DNA of 46,836 nt from assembly GCA_030448225.1 (NCBI GenBank), contig JAUJNJ010000041.1:1-46836 (forward strand). Reading direction: 5' to 3'. The first letter of the stretch is position 1, and each line of letters starts with the position of its first letter. This DNA comes from Phycisphaerae bacterium. GTDB lineage: Bacteria; Planctomycetota; Phycisphaerae; Tepidisphaerales; Tepidisphaeraceae. Of the stretch, positions 34,997-46,836 are shown piece after piece. A model generated the notes under the pieces. The model ran no database searches. It was not told the DNA's origin and saw nothing but the letters and a program-made list of their open reading frames with translations. The translations under genes and the position numbers were made by a program.

Positions 34997-35038
34997 GGGG
35001 CGTGCCGGGGGATTCAACGTAGAGGGTCGGTATGCCCT

Positions 35039-35601
35039 GTGGACGAACAGGTTGTAGTCACCGTGTTGCTGCGCGAGAGCGGAGGCAAGCTGATCGCGTA
35101 CGTCTGGTCGATCGTGCGCAGCTATCACGTGGCGGAAGACGTATTCCAGGAAGTGTCGATGCTCGCGCTGGAGAAGCGGGCGGAGATTCACGGGCCGGAG
35201 AAGGTCCTGCCGTGGCTGCGGGCGATCGCGCGACTACCGGGCGCTCTGGCGCGGCGAAGGCGCTTGCGCCGGGCCGGAGTCGCGATGGACGAGCGACTGC
35301 TCGACCTGCTGGAGCAGGCGTGGCAAACGCAGGACGCCGCGCCGGCTTCCGACCTGATGGACGCGCTGGAACGGTGCCCTCGAAGCTGACGCCGCGCGCG
35401 GGAGATCATCCGGTACCGCTACGGCCTGAGCATGAGCGGGGCCGACGTCGCCACGCCTGGACCGGCCAGTGCAGACGGTCTACAAGGCGTTGGCCCGCAT
35501 ACACGTGCGGCTCGGATCCTGCATCCAGCGGCACGTCCGGCTGGCCGGCGCTGAACGCTTGAACCGGCTGCTCGCGCGCCCCGTACCACGCATCTCCATG
35601 A
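35039..35601 (+). pseudogene. ECF sigma factor, module 1, frameshifted
   Basis: From the GTG at 35039 the frame gives VVVTVLLRESGGKLIAYVWS and YHVAEDVFQEVSMLALEKRA, the region 2 core of a Rhodopirellula/Planctomyces-type ECF sigma factor (with the ED.FQEV signature), then HGPEKVLPWLRAIAR. After a frame change near 35378 comes region 4: LTPRAREIIRYRYGLSMSG and VQTVYKALARIHVRLGSCIQ. About 175 residues in all, the same size and order as the intact paralogue at 41426. One further indel seems needed for the stop to overlap the FecR-like ATG at 35598 as it does in module 2. If intact in the cell, it would direct RNA polymerase to this locus. Confidence 0.7.
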
Positions 35602-37385
35602 GCGAGCAGTTCCCCTACAACCTCCCGCCCGAGGACGACGCCGACGGTGAGGTGGCGTTCACCGAGATGGTGATGCATACCTCGACGGACAGCTCGACGA
35701 AGCCGGCGGCGGGAACTGGCGGATGCGTTGCGGTCCGACCCGCGGCGGCGCGACCAGTTCGTGCGGACCTGCCTCCACGCGGAGATGCTGCTGGAACGGC
35801 TGGGGTCACAGGCCCGGTTGGCCGACGAGGCCGATCCGTCGGACGCCTTGCACGAGTCGATCGTCCTGCCGGCGATCCGGGACGAGGACGCCCGGGCGGC
35901 GGGGGACGACGAGGACGAAGTTCGCGCGCTCCTCCGTCGGTCCCTAAGCCTCCACCGCCGCCGCGGCGCTGGCGGAACGGGCGGGGAGCTCGCCGTCGCC
36001 GCGGCACTCGTGTTGGTGGCCGGGGTGGCCGCGTGGGTGCTCAGCCGGCCGCCCCCTCGCACGCGACGCTGGCGGCGTCGGTCGACGCGCGGTGGACCGA
36101 CGGCCAGGCGCGCGCAGCGGCGACCGCGTGCGGGCGGGTCGGCTGCGGCTGGCGAGCGGGCTGGCCAAGCTTGCGATGGACGACGGCACGCAGGTCGTCC
36201 TCGAGGCGCCGGCCGACGTGGTCGTCGAGTCCGCCGCACGCGTGCGACTGAACGCCGGGCGGCTCTCCGCCGACGTGCCGCCGGCGCGCGGAGTTCGCGG
36301 TCCACACGCCCGTGGCGCGGGTGGTCGACTTGGGCACGTCGTTCGGCGTCGCCGTCGACCCGACCGGGCGGACCGACGCCGTCGTCTTCACCGGCCGGGT
36401 GACGGTCGCCCCGGCGCGCCGACGCCGCGCCCGTTGACGACGCTCGCCGCCGGCGCGCCGCACGGTCAACCCGCCCGACTCCGGTGGCACCGACGCGGTG
36501 GTGGCCGCTGACGCCCGCGGAAGCGGGGGCTTCGTGCGGGGGACGAACTCGACATGCGCCTGCGGGGCGTCGCGGGGATCGACGGTCGACCGGCGCTGGC
36601 GGCGGCGGCTGGACGTCGCCAAGGACCCGGAAGTAATCGCGTACGCGTTCTTCGACGCCAGCACCGACGCGCGGCCGCCCCGCCCGGCACTCCCGCCGCG
36701 AGGGAGCGACCGGTCGACCCGCGGCCCCGCGCGCATCGACCCTGTGCCGCTCGACGCCGACGGCACCGGCGGAACGCACACGACCGATGCCGACGCCGCG
36801 CACCCCGTGTTCCTCGACCTCGCCGGACCCGCCGCCCGCCGGGCGGCCGCGGCCGGACTGCTCGACGCCGAGGGCGCCGTCGCCGCGGACGGGAACGTGA
36901 TTTACGTCGCCTGGTGGGCCGAGGCGAAGCCCGATCCGGTTGAAGGATTTTCCGGTCTCTCGCTCATGGACGGGGACGACCCCGAGGTGAACGAATACCT
37001 GTTCGCCGGCCGCGGGACCGACACGTCGTTTTACGCGTGCCACCTGCAGCGGTACGACCGGGCCATCAGGGCCCCGGGCGACCTGGAGCGCGCGCGGCCG
37101 CTCGACGCGGCGCCGGCCGCGCCCGGGCTACAGCCGGCGCAGGTCGATGGCGCGCCACGGCGGTGGGTGCTGGAGATCCGATTCCGGCCGGGCCGCGACT
37201 CGATTCGAGCTTACCTCGATCCGCCGGCGGGCGCATCGTTGCCCGGGTCGCCGAACCTGACGATCGAGAACCTCGACCTGCGGTTCGACCGGCTCCGACT
37301 CGTCTCGTCCGCCGGAGCGTCCGCGCGGTTCGGCCGCATCCTGATCGGCACGACGTACGCCGCCGTGGCGGGCGCGGGTCGCTAG
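35598..37385 (+). pseudogene. FecR-like membrane regulator with large exported C-terminus, module 1, frameshifted
   Basis: Begins MSEQFPYNLPPEDDADGEVA at an ATGA that overlaps the sigma end. After a frame change a cytosolic domain follows (LRSDPRRRDQFVRTCLHAEM), then a membrane helix (LAVAAALVLVAGVAAWVLS) and the FecR core (TQVVLEAPADVVVESAARV, ARVVDLGTSFGVAVDPTGRT). Last comes an intact C-terminal part from about 36600 to the TAG at 37385, which contains VFLDLAGPAARRAAAAG, EVNEYLFAGRGTDTSFYACH and FDRLRLVSSAGASARFGRI. The C-terminus looks like a beta-sandwich of unknown function. Such proteins act as anti-sigma factors that relay an extracytoplasmic cue. Frame breaks lie only in 35.7-36.6 kb. 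Confidence 0.65.
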
Positions 37386-37533
37386 ACGAATTGCGTGCAA
37401 GTTTTCCGATCGGACCGTCCGTGACGATCCGGCGGAACCGTCCGCTTGTGCCCAGCCGCAGCGATTGGCGGGGGCAGAGTGGCCGCCGGTGGGGCGACGC
37501 CCGCGAAGACGCTTCCCAACAGAGGGTCCTGCC

Positions 37534-45197: not shown

Positions 45198-45238
45198 CAG
45201 TGGGATGATTTTCGGTGGCGCCACTCGGAGGACGAACG

Positions 45239-46081
45239 GTGACTACACGACTGAAGATGATGCTGGCAACGCCCGTCGCCGCGGCGGCGTGCCTCCTGGC
45301 CGCGGGCGTCCTGCCGGCGGCCGACCCGGCGGACCCGAAGCCGGTGTTCGTCGACTCCTTCGACGACGCCGCCGTCGCCGAGGCGGGCGACGCGAAGGAC
45401 TTCTGGACCGCCAGCGGGCGCGGCACGGCCGAGCAGGTTGACGGCAAGCTCGTCCTCACCACCACCGGCGCCGAGTACGCCAACCAGCACCTGTTCGGCC
45501 CGGTCTTGCCCGAACTCAACTTCCTCGTGCGCCCGCTGACGTTCCGCGTCGACGGTATCGCACTGGGCGGCACCGCCGCGCCGCCGGAACGGCAGGTGTT
45601 CCGCTTCACCCTCGCGCCCGTCGCCGAGACCGAGTACCGCACGCTCGACGCGCTGGGCCTCGACCTGCGGGGCGACGGCATGCTGCGCCTCGGCTACAAG
45701 CTCGACACCGCCGAGAAGGATCCGGCCGGGGCGAACGTCCTGGTGCAGAAGAAGTTCGACGGCCCCGTCACGGGCTTCGACCTGACGCTGCGCCCCGACG
45801 GCTACACGCTGCTCGTCCGCCACGTCGCGGCCGACCAGTCGGCGGCGACCGAGACGTTCGCCGGCAAGTACGCCGACGCGGGCCCCGGCCTCAGCGTCGC
45901 CACCTGGGGCGACCACGCCGGCGGCCGCACCGGCTCGGCGATCGTGCTGCTGGCGCAGCGCGCCCCCACGGGCGACGACGCCCACACCGCCACCGTCACC
46001 CTCGACGAGGTGCGGGTCACCACCGGCGAGGGCGTCGCGACGGCCGAAGCGAAGACCTCCACGTACCGGGAGACCGAATGA
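45239..46081 (+). CDS. Secreted protein of unknown function, module 2
   Basis: A 280-residue exported protein; I do not recognise the family. After the GTG start (GGAGG seven bases upstream) comes a signal peptide (MMLATPVAAAACLLAAGVLP). The mature part has a laminin-G/concanavalin-like beta pattern: VFVDSFDDAAVAEAGDAKDF, QVDGKLVLTTTGAEYANQHL, FRVDGIALGG, TGFDLTLRPDGYTLLVRHVA and HTATVTLDEVRVTTGEG. Starting with 'D(S/D)FDD' and ending with a 'V.LDEVRV' strand is typical of glycan-binding-type beta-sandwiches. It may bind a surface polysaccharide. Its TGA overlaps the ATG of the pseudopilin gene (ATGA), so the two are co-translated. Confidence 0.75.
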   Translation: MTTRLKMMLATPVAAAACLLAAGVLPAADPADPKPVFVDSFDDAAVAEAGDAKDFWTASGRGTAEQVDGKLVLTTTGAEYANQHLFGPVLPELNFLVRPLTFRVDGIALGGTAAPPERQVFRFTLAPVAETEYRTLDALGLDLRGDGMLRLGYKLDTAEKDPAGANVLVQKKFDGPVTGFDLTLRPDGYTLLVRHVAADQSAATETFAGKYADAGPGLSVATWGDHAGGRTGSAIVLLAQRAPTGDDAHTATVTLDEVRVTTGEGVATAEAKTSTYRETE

Positions 46082-46836
46082 ACGCGCCGGATTCCCCCCG
46101 CGCCGCCCGTCGCCGATTTGGCGCCGCCCGCCGCGGATTCACCCTCGTCGAACTGCTCGTGGTCATCGGCATCATCGCGGTGCTGGTGGGCATCCTGCTG
46201 CCCGCGCTGAACCGCGCGCGGGCGTCGGCCCGGACCGTCACCTGCCTGAGCAACCTCAAGCAGATCGGGGCCGCCACCCACATGTACGTGGGCGAGCACA
46301 AGGGCACGCTGCCGCTGCTGCTGAGCCCCAACTGGAGCGGGACCTACCACTGGTACAAGGCCATCAGCGCCTACGCGGGCAAGCCGGTCACCGCTGCCAG
46401 CGGGTCCAACCAGGTCGCGGAGGTGATCCGCGCCTGCCCGGATTGGGCCGGCAGCGAGGCGGCCCTGAACAGCAGCCGGATCGGATACGGCATGAACGAC
46501 CGGATGATGCTCGGCGCGGGCCGGTACCCGACGTCGTCCACCCCGCCCAACCCGGCCGACCACTGGTTCACGAACATGATGTACGACCCGACGGGCGTGC
46601 GGGGCATCGACCGCGGGCTGGGCGCGATGAAGGTCACGCAGTTCCGCAAGTCGCACGCGGTCATCCTCTACGGCGTGAGCGACAACGGGATGCTCGAGTC
46701 GCGCTACGATGCGGCGGCCGCGCCGCTCTTCCAGGTCTGGCCGTCCGCCGAGTGGGGCCGCGGACAGGGCCGGACCGACATCGCGGCGGGCGGCGAGTGG
46801 GTGACGTGCGCGGGCTGGCGGCACCGCGGCGAGCCG
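46078..46836 (+). CDS. Pseudopilin-like protein (DUF1559 style), module 2, truncated by the window end
   Basis: The open frame runs off the end of the window; 253 codons are present. It begins MNAPDSPRAARRRFGAARRG, then FTLVELLVVIGIIAVL, a prepilin leader and helix, followed by LNRARASARTVTCLSNLKQI. Later stretches (NQVAEVIRACPDWAG, RIGYGMNDRMMLGAG, FRKSHAVILYGVSDNG) match this family's variable head. The FADGHV end is not reached. The ATG overlaps the stop of the secreted protein, so the operon links a secreted beta-sandwich protein directly to a pseudopilin. Confidence 0.85.
   Translation, partial: MNAPDSPRAARRRFGAARRGFTLVELLVVIGIIAVLVGILLPALNRARASARTVTCLSNLKQIGAATHMYVGEHKGTLPLLLSPNWSGTYHWYKAISAYAGKPVTAASGSNQVAEVIRACPDWAGSEAALNSSRIGYGMNDRMMLGAGRYPTSSTPPNPADHWFTNMMYDPTGVRGIDRGLGAMKVTQFRKSHAVILYGVSDNGMLESRYDAAAAPLFQVWPSAEWGRGQGRTDIAAGGEWVTCAGWRHRGEP

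Follow-up and report, generated by a model that had tools for sequence, protein, structure and literature searches.

Candidate surface-signalling cassettes pairing a FecR-type sensor with a sorted surface protein in Phycisphaerae

We analysed a stretch of 46,836 bases (70% GC; hereafter the window) from contig JAUJNJ010000041.1 of a Phycisphaerae bacterium, the last part of which encodes, on one strand, an extracytoplasmic function (ECF) sigma factor, a FecR-type regulator, exported proteins and a pseudopilin. These families recur as ordered cassettes in related planctomycete genomes, and in two of these relatives the outer domain (ectodomain) of the FecR-type protein is often homologous to the surface protein encoded in its own module. 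With slightly better than even confidence, we read these loci as self-contained surface-signalling cassettes in which the sensor and the displayed protein bind one target, probably a glycan. The modules of the window presumably behave like those of the two relatives. A first-pass annotation of this DNA had described two paralogous modules and had suggested a polysaccharide-sensing and display system; its observation is partly confirmed and its interpretation partly supported.

Gene content and order of the cassettes

Module 2 of the window (41.3-46.8 kb) is intact and reads sigma, FecR with LamG, PEP2, EXP2 and pseudopilin, all on the plus strand:

41426..41959, plus strand: sigma 2, ECF sigma factor (TIGR02989, 157.1 bits against a cut-off of 124.55, model positions 2-158)
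41956..43791, plus strand: FecR2, FecR-type regulator (PF04773, 31.9 bits; PF13385, Laminin_G_3, 73.2 bits)
44259..45197, plus strand: PEP2, PEP-CTERM-type exported protein, possibly with a ConA-like lectin fold (weak model)
45215..46081, plus strand: EXP2, exported orphan protein
46078..46836, plus strand: pseudopilin 2 (N_methyl and DUF1559), truncated by the end of the window

Sigma 2 belongs to TIGR02989, scoring above the curated cut-off across the whole model; its region 4 reaches 24.6 bits with Sigma70_r4_2 (Pfam cut-off 25.7) and is spanned by the full-length TIGR02989 match. Among the named genomes, its two highest-ranking matches come from Phycisphaerae metagenome-assembled genomes (MAGs; 46% and 38%), and the next ones from Verrucomicrobiota and other planctomycetes. 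The stop of sigma 2 and the start of FecR2 overlap by four bases, as do the stop of EXP2 and the start of pseudopilin 2. FecR2 consists of an N-terminal part, a membrane helix near residues 135-155, a FecR domain and a LamG ectodomain, so that a FecR domain behind a single membrane helix adjoins an ECF sigma factor. PEP2 had been called a secreted PEP-CTERM protein, and it has a hydrophobic stretch at its N-terminus and a C-terminal tail of the form VPEP...LLLRRRR, common to its homologues P0105 and P0106, while its score with TIGR02595 is 15.5 bits against a cut-off of 16. Of the 7999 candidates scored for EXP2, the protein itself was the only match at E 1e-4, and its structure model (predicted local distance difference test, pLDDT, 40.6; poor) gave no fold match at E<=0.001. 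The N_methyl domain scores above its cut-off in both pseudopilins of the window. No TonB-dependent receptor was found among the module genes scanned in the window.

Four relatives were used for comparison. G067 (4.9 Mb) is of the same class as G005, the genome of locus L001 (Phycisphaera sp. RI_212), which falls in its family group; G309 (5.71 Mb, in a single contig) is from the same family group, and G304 is the genome of locus L049, a Sedimentisphaerales MAG. G067 holds 116 TIGR02989 matches and 128 prepilin-type matches; the linkage test used 115 of the 116 sigma rows (one low-scoring fragment was omitted), of which 94 score at least 95 bits. For 80 of these 94 sigma genes, the 4.5 kb downstream contain a pseudopilin gene in the same orientation, compared with a random mean of 6.3 and a maximum of 13 in 300 trials, and the corresponding controls gave 7/94 upstream and 1/94 on the opposite strand. 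Viewed from the other side, 93 of the 128 pseudopilins have a sigma gene of at least 95 bits no more than 6 kb ahead of them. The Pfam FecR model, which overlooks many FecR proteins of G067, matched behind 28 of the 94 sigma genes (random mean 1.0), and 28 of its 30 matches were sigma-linked.

The 75 of these 94 loci with sufficient contig room were fetched, and FecR was recognised in 64 of them by stop-to-stop reading and in 71 by gene calls, 53 of the 71 also having a protein with a C-terminal sorting (CTERM) signal. The usual gene order among the 75 modules is sigma, FecR, surface protein, pseudopilin, and the complete ordered cassette is present in 40 of the 71 modules with a called FecR. 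Within these 40 cassettes, four-base overlaps join FecR to the CTERM gene in 12 and the CTERM gene to the pilin in 14 (gene calls), and the surface-protein gene begins no more than 160 bases past FecR in 36.

In the other three relatives we sampled sigma loci, mostly the top-scoring ones with contig room (40 of 70 in G005, 40 of 55 in G304, 40 of the 50 listed in G309), and recognised pseudopilins by motif. They were present in 39/40 loci of G309, 30/39 usable loci of G005 and 21/34 usable loci of G304, with opposite-strand counts of 1, 1 and 0, respectively; in G005 and G304 the pseudopilin frequently stands immediately past FecR. The supposition of the first-pass annotation that these families form a recurring neighbourhood is thus borne out in G067, and the pseudopilin counts of the three other genomes, set against the opposite strand, agree. 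Could families this numerous simply fall together by chance? Their expansion in G067 and the modest linkage at 80 loci chosen across phyla by the sigma factor alone, of which 14 have a pseudopilin in the 5.5 kb downstream, would suit such an explanation, but the excess over random in G067, with its strand and direction bias, and the near-complete linkage in G309 make it hardly credible; for these two genomes the pseudopilin counts refute chance co-location. Downstream DNA extended for 4.5 kb or more in 61 of the 80 sigma-only loci, and the loci from Verrucomicrobiota had a pseudopilin within 5.5 kb downstream in 0/32 cases. The cassette is not general to the TIGR02989 sigma family. Here we call type A the cassette of sigma, FecR, CTERM protein and pseudopilin; it is the form seen in G067 and G309, and module 2 of the window has it with an additional gene.

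The surface proteins of G067 have C-terminal tails of the type PTPAALPAGLALM...RRRK or similar. A strict version of this signal was found on the same strand in 59/75 loci of G067 and on the opposite strand in none, with 7/75 in the next stretch downstream; in G309 the counts were 25/40 and 0, and several other loci had classic PEP-CTERM tails in that slot. Existing models mostly overlook the PTPAALPAG...RRRK-type tail, TIGR02595 matching 4 and NF033465 (PTPA-CTERM) 1 of 58 G067 proteins at E<=0.01. The CTERM signal linked to sigma in G067 is this PTPA variant. A looser regular expression gave same-strand and opposite-strand counts of 21 and 25 in G005, 25 and 18 in G304, and 72 and 53 in G067; because it discriminates poorly, our conclusions use the strict form only (G067, G309). 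Two exosortase homologues are present in each of three relatives, and in two of these, G067 and G304, they score above the family cut-off.

The N_methyl domain was matched in all 57 pilins scanned, 55 from G067 and 2 from the window (two of the 57 G067 pilins, duplicates from overlapping regions, were omitted). In locus L177 a second pseudopilin (6183-7058) is fused directly to a LamG domain that aligns with the FecR ectodomain of the module over 254 residues (35% identity); this fusion is the sole LamG bearer among the 57 pilins. One other observation concerns a G067 pilin with a weak SKN1/KRE6 match (E 0.00023; 1/57), a glucan-related family that we take to be ConA-like.

Homology between sensor ectodomains and neighbouring surface proteins

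Pfam models matched LamG_3 (27), HpiC1-like (6), DUF642 (3), NPCBM (2) and CBM96 (1) domains in 72 FecR-type proteins of G067, and LamG_3 (14), F5/8C (3), CBM96 (3) and other domains in 58 of its surface proteins. Lectin-like and carbohydrate-binding domains such as LamG, NPCBM, CBM96 and F5/8C commonly bind glycans.

In the gene-call test, the FecR ectodomain of G067 matched its own surface protein in 19 of 53 modules (E<=1e-3), compared with a permutation mean of 1.36 and a maximum of 7 in 5000 permutations. A translated search of the 4.5 kb behind FecR gave an own match in 24/64 modules versus 53/4032 other pairs, and a repeat with identical settings in G309 gave 16/36 versus 38/1260; none of 5000 permutations reached as high in either genome. 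Pooled over both genomes, 40 of 100 ectodomains matched their own module (1.7 expected), compared with 165 of 9900 other pairs at E<=1e-3. The own module was the single best match for 29 of these 40, and for 27 the neighbouring protein was a closer relative than any other of the 100 FecR ectodomains. The matches were located in open reading frames (ORFs) with a CTERM signal in 37 cases, in the pseudopilin-LamG fusion in one and in other ORFs in two. Identities range from 24 to 60%, with 37 of the 40 between 28 and 55%; in locus L117, for example, the LamG domain of FecR aligns with almost all of the mature surface protein at 52% identity (243 residues). Because the sensor domain is so often a homologous copy in type-A cassettes, the sensor and the displayed protein most likely share a target.

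Controls in G067 gave no matches between FecR and its own pilin (0/46) or between FecR and the nearest other module (0/48). Joint duplication of modules was likewise not seen in this genome, where 23 pairs of similar FecR proteins and 4 pairs of similar CTERM proteins include no pair alike in both. The 40 matched ectodomains form 24 mutually unrelated clusters at E<=1e-3 and 34 at 1e-10. Recombination between adjacent genes might copy domains repeatedly without any regulatory meaning, and such local copying predicts both this number of clusters and modules that, in G067, are not duplicated as units. We nevertheless consider neutral copying distinctly unlikely, since identities of 24 to 60% make the matches look old and retained, and since the copy resides in the CTERM protein in 37/40 cases and not in the first pilin.

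A different explanation is that ectodomain and surface protein are alike because they bind each other homotypically. On this account the surface protein would itself be the transducer, or the protein left unsorted in the periplasm would be the signal, and FecR would gauge the traffic of surface proteins rather than a glycan. Partners of this kind would need the module-specific matching that we observed, and in the PupB-PupR pair a FecR-type periplasmic domain directly binds the signalling domain of the receptor, according to the parts of PMC9249621 consulted. The Pfam domains are, however, mostly lectin-like or carbohydrate-binding, and G067 and G309 together have 60 modules of 100 without a match. 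Direct contact is therefore an unlikely, though not far-fetched, account of the homology.

Several observations weigh against our reading of a shared target. Those 60 modules of G067 and G309 lack a detectable match. In the window itself, neither PEP2 nor EXP2 is homologous in sequence to FecR2, and a profile comparison of PEP2 with FecR gave no match; a common ConA-like fold is weakly suggested for FecR2 and PEP2, by a PEP2 model of pLDDT 47. G005, despite belonging to the family group of G067, gave no signal (own match 2/36 versus 1.23 expected), nor did G304 (1/27 versus 0.69 expected), and 52 sigma-only loci gave 3 own matches versus 0.96 expected. Early mild positives in G005 (2/18) and G304 (2/16) disappeared with 40 loci each. 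The standard PEP-CTERM model is weakly sigma-linked in G067 (6/94, random mean 2.1, maximum 6). Finally, the window carries a promoter-like element, described in the last section, of which a looser pattern, TTTNTGTCYAAN{11,17}GTAT, gave 6 matches in 19 genomes versus 5 for the reversed control; the 6 fall in 4 genomes, 4 upstream of an already-seen sigma gene and 2 elsewhere. The duplicated copy of this element appears so far to be peculiar to the window: a search for a second copy of sigma-upstream sequence within 155 modules of G067, G005 and G304 gave 20 matches at E<=0.01, none of them promoter-like by eye.

Proposed mechanism and comparison with known systems

We hypothesize that the FecR-type regulator would sit in the cytoplasmic membrane and hold its dedicated ECF sigma factor, its outer part being a lectin-like domain such as LamG. 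Once freed, the sigma factor would drive its own operon, presumably from the promoter-like element, including the surface protein sorted by an exosortase-type system and the pseudopilin. The displayed lectin and a pseudopilin fibre might catch an outside polymer and move it towards the periplasm, and the matching FecR domain would recognise the caught polymer. FecR would then be cut, as in other FecR systems, leaving the sigma factor free to boost the same module.

The known systems are compared here from extracts of the cited papers. As in FecI-FecR-FecA (PMC9249621), an ECF sigma factor adjoins a FecR-type regulator with an N-terminal part, one helix and a FecR domain. Unlike in that system, no TonB receptor was found among the cassette genes scanned, the C-terminal part consists of LamG or other lectin-like domains, and a sorted surface protein and a pseudopilin occupy the place of the receptor in the operon. 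The absence of a TonB partner had been remarked upon in the first-pass annotation. TonB Plug domains number 1, 3 and 2 in the draft assemblies of G067, G005 and G304, which have 94 (of at least 95 bits), 70 and 55 sigma genes, respectively, so that there are not enough TonB receptors to give each of these FecR proteins one of its own.

Paralogous pairs of sigma and anti-sigma factors are also known from SigI-RsgI of Clostridium thermocellum (PMC4711584), where the sigma factor is autoregulated and the anti-sigma factors have outside carbohydrate-binding domains (CBM3, PA14, GH10); the LamG domain of FecR2 and the NPCBM, CBM96 and F5/8C domains of relatives are putative counterparts. SigI lacks region 4, and it operates in a Gram-positive host with cellulosome genes as targets (PMC4711584). 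The sigma factor of the cassette, unlike SigI, has region 4, its regulator is of the FecR type, and the matched partner and a pseudopilin are encoded in the same operon. The surface proteins resemble substrates of the PEP-CTERM/exosortase system (PMC1569441) in having a signal peptide, a short C-terminal Pro-x-Pro motif, a hydrophobic stretch and a basic end, but differ from the classic form in that most tails in G067 are of the PTPA type; the regulatory element of the proteobacterial system is of the sigma-54 and not the ECF type (PMC1569441).

The pseudopilins carry both Pfam domains of the planctomycete N_methyl/SBP_bac_10 (DUF1559) pilin family (PMC8567305). Tuwongella immobilis has 100 N_methyl proteins, the neighbours of which often bear signal peptides; the pilin section of that paper draws no link to sigma factors or FecR, and the word FecR is absent from its main text (PMC8567305). 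Planctomycetes have also been found to bind dextran on surface fibres, and uptake by pilin-like fibres has been proposed (PMC5394234, PMC12078418). The relevant passages of these two papers name no such cassette, and a connection between it and fibre-based uptake is our own suggestion.

More tentatively, and with a little less than even confidence, we propose that these loci represent a previously undescribed class of surface signalling, in which a genome runs as many as about 80 cassettes in parallel, each having a private sigma factor, a twin sensor, an exosortase-sorted version of the lectin domain and a private pseudopilin. Since the sensor would be a twin of the displayed protein, this equally tentative reading implies that a cassette would acquire a new ligand specificity when a domain is copied from one gene into the gene beside it. 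We found no description of the four-family cassette or of the sensor-surface match among the titles and abstract openings listed in our open-access literature searches. The ECF sigma factors and pilin-like proteins of planctomycetes, dozens in number, have no known function, and the cassette joins such expanded families into one unit, in which the displayed domain would predict what the sensor detects. Should the shared-target reading be true, each cassette could be given its ligand, promoter and regulon, the proposed fibre-based polysaccharide uptake of planctomycetes would gain candidate genes, and the sensor repertoire would be extendable through local domain copying.

Module 1, the promoter-like element and neighbouring genes

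The second locus of the window had been described as repeating the plan of module 2. Its pseudopilin and a glycoside hydrolase of family 9 (GH9) are intact, and the genes before them are broken:

33900..34700 (approximate ends), minus strand: PEP1, broken gene for a PEP-CTERM-type exported protein, in pieces in different frames, with the tail VSVPEPASCALLGLL
35039..35560 (start probable, end approximate), plus strand: sigma 1, broken, TIGR02989-like in its first part
35600..37385, plus strand: FecR1, broken FecR-type gene spread across several frames
37534..38328, plus strand: pseudopilin 1 (N_methyl and DUF1559), intact
38354..40774, plus strand: GH9 with a CBM3-like C-terminal domain (PF00759, 273.7 bits; PF00942, 23 bits), intact

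The claim of two modules on one plan therefore stands for module 2, while an intact module 1 is not supported; that of a pseudopilin in each locus holds for both, the copy of module 2 running off the window. Sigma 1 scores 63.5 bits with TIGR02989, below the cut-off, over model positions 6-107, its frame breaking after region 2. FecR1 gave no Pfam match in any of the four pieces scanned, and a FecR-like signature, VVDLGTSFGV, is readable in the DNA near 36.3 kb. As the frames read, neither an intact FecR nor a LamG domain can be claimed for module 1, so that the FecR-like protein with an exported domain, expected in both loci, is found in FecR2 alone. PEP1, which the first-pass annotation had missed together with the promoter-like element and the ectodomain match in G067 and G309, diverges from sigma 1 in a three-frame reading.

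The breaks fall within about 31-36.5 kb and affect PEP1, sigma 1, FecR1 and a BrkB-like gene, of which the second half alone lies in one frame (31556-32440). On either side the genes are whole, a histidine kinase (28536-29681) before the broken stretch and pseudopilin 1 and GH9 behind it, and homopolymer density hardly differs, at 2.3 per kb in the stretch and 2.0-2.2 elsewhere. Because unrelated neighbours are broken together, sequence errors rather than decay are the probable, though not proven, cause. The frames of module 1 were left unmended in all analyses.

A promoter-like element, TTTTnnTGTCCA (at most one mismatch), occurs at four sites in the window, before sigma 1, the divergent PEP1, sigma 2 and PEP2:

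34860..34903, minus strand: element before PEP1, TTTTTCGATGTCCACACTTCCTCCGAACCGGGGATGAATCAACG
34979..35019, plus strand: element before sigma 1, TTTTGTGTGTCCACACTTGGGGCGTGCCGGGGGATTCAACG
41317..41358, plus strand: element before sigma 2, TGTCCACTTCCGGCGGGTCGACCGTAT
43883..44044, plus strand: second copy of the sigma 2 element and leader, before PEP2

By chance 0.31 sites are expected, and none of 100 shuffles reached four, a statistic after the fact, since the pattern was derived from these very sites; that it has zero further matches elsewhere in the window was not built into it. The extended element of module 2, TGTCCA, eight bases and GGGTCGACCGTAT, has two matches and none in shuffles, and that of module 1 reads TGTCCACACTT, then CCGGGG and TCAACG, in agreement between its two sites. 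The 16-base gap between TGTCC and CGTAT is compatible with ECF promoters. The copy before PEP2 aligns with the sequence upstream of sigma 2 over 79 bases at 78% and 29 at 90%, and the likeness carries on through the leader into the opening codons of sigma 2 (81% over 58 bases); a 40-codon ORF in the PEP2 leader (44016-44138) has first codons resembling the start of sigma 2. Because the copy reads on into leader and codons, it looks like a duplicated promoter and start of sigma 2 set before PEP2 at 43.9 kb, and the ORF would be a relic.

Beyond the window, a large genome-wide promoter regulon can be ruled out for the looser pattern mentioned above, which showed no overall enrichment over the reversed control. 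The 6-mers enriched upstream of 80 sigma genes are chiefly A/T-rich, TGTCCA occurring in 8/80, and elements like TGTCYAA or TCYAA are visible by eye in some loci, with no statistic attached; the minus-strand rows of one such reading, which had not been reoriented, were disregarded.

The PF00759 match of GH9 spans model positions 1-442 of 444, and its place at the end of module 1 is as first reported. It starts 26 to about 150 bases past the stop of pseudopilin 1, depending on the start codon, and its true start is probably near 38.48 kb. In G067, the genes behind the pseudopilins belong to miscellaneous families (37 of 43 scanned), such as tRNA synthetase, MutS and aldehyde dehydrogenase, with no glycoside hydrolase among the matches listed (25 of 95 families); the other six resembled genes for sigma, FecR or CTERM proteins in the following module. 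Because these genes are miscellaneous, GH9 is not part of the repeated unit, contrary to the earlier view of an enzyme as a component of the system, and it may accompany module 1 as a passenger. The alternative, a regulated locus for polysaccharide degradation with GH9 as the target, as in RsgI systems, would account for a GH9 with CBM3 on the same strand behind pseudopilin 1. It could also draw on loci L067 and L077 (Opitutales/Verrucomicrobiaceae), where the element upstream of sigma, TTTTTnGGAAACAA...TCATTA, is found again 9.2 and 3.9 kb further downstream, ahead of a gene for a putative arylsulfatase, named from a motif. It is nonetheless very unlikely, given the variety of genes in that position in G067 and the absence from the window of a promoter-like copy before GH9. 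The idea that sigma switches on the downstream genes is supported in so far as sigma and PEP-CTERM genes share the promoter-like element, and this support does not extend to GH9.

In locus L014, a common upstream stretch also precedes a large gene 5.2 kb away. Elsewhere in the window, genes for a PspA/IM30-like protein, a DUF559 protein and an AAA ATPase are adjacent (16616-19793), and a gene for a DUF6797 protein lies beside one for a further N_methyl (prepilin-type) protein on the minus strand (20458-24001).

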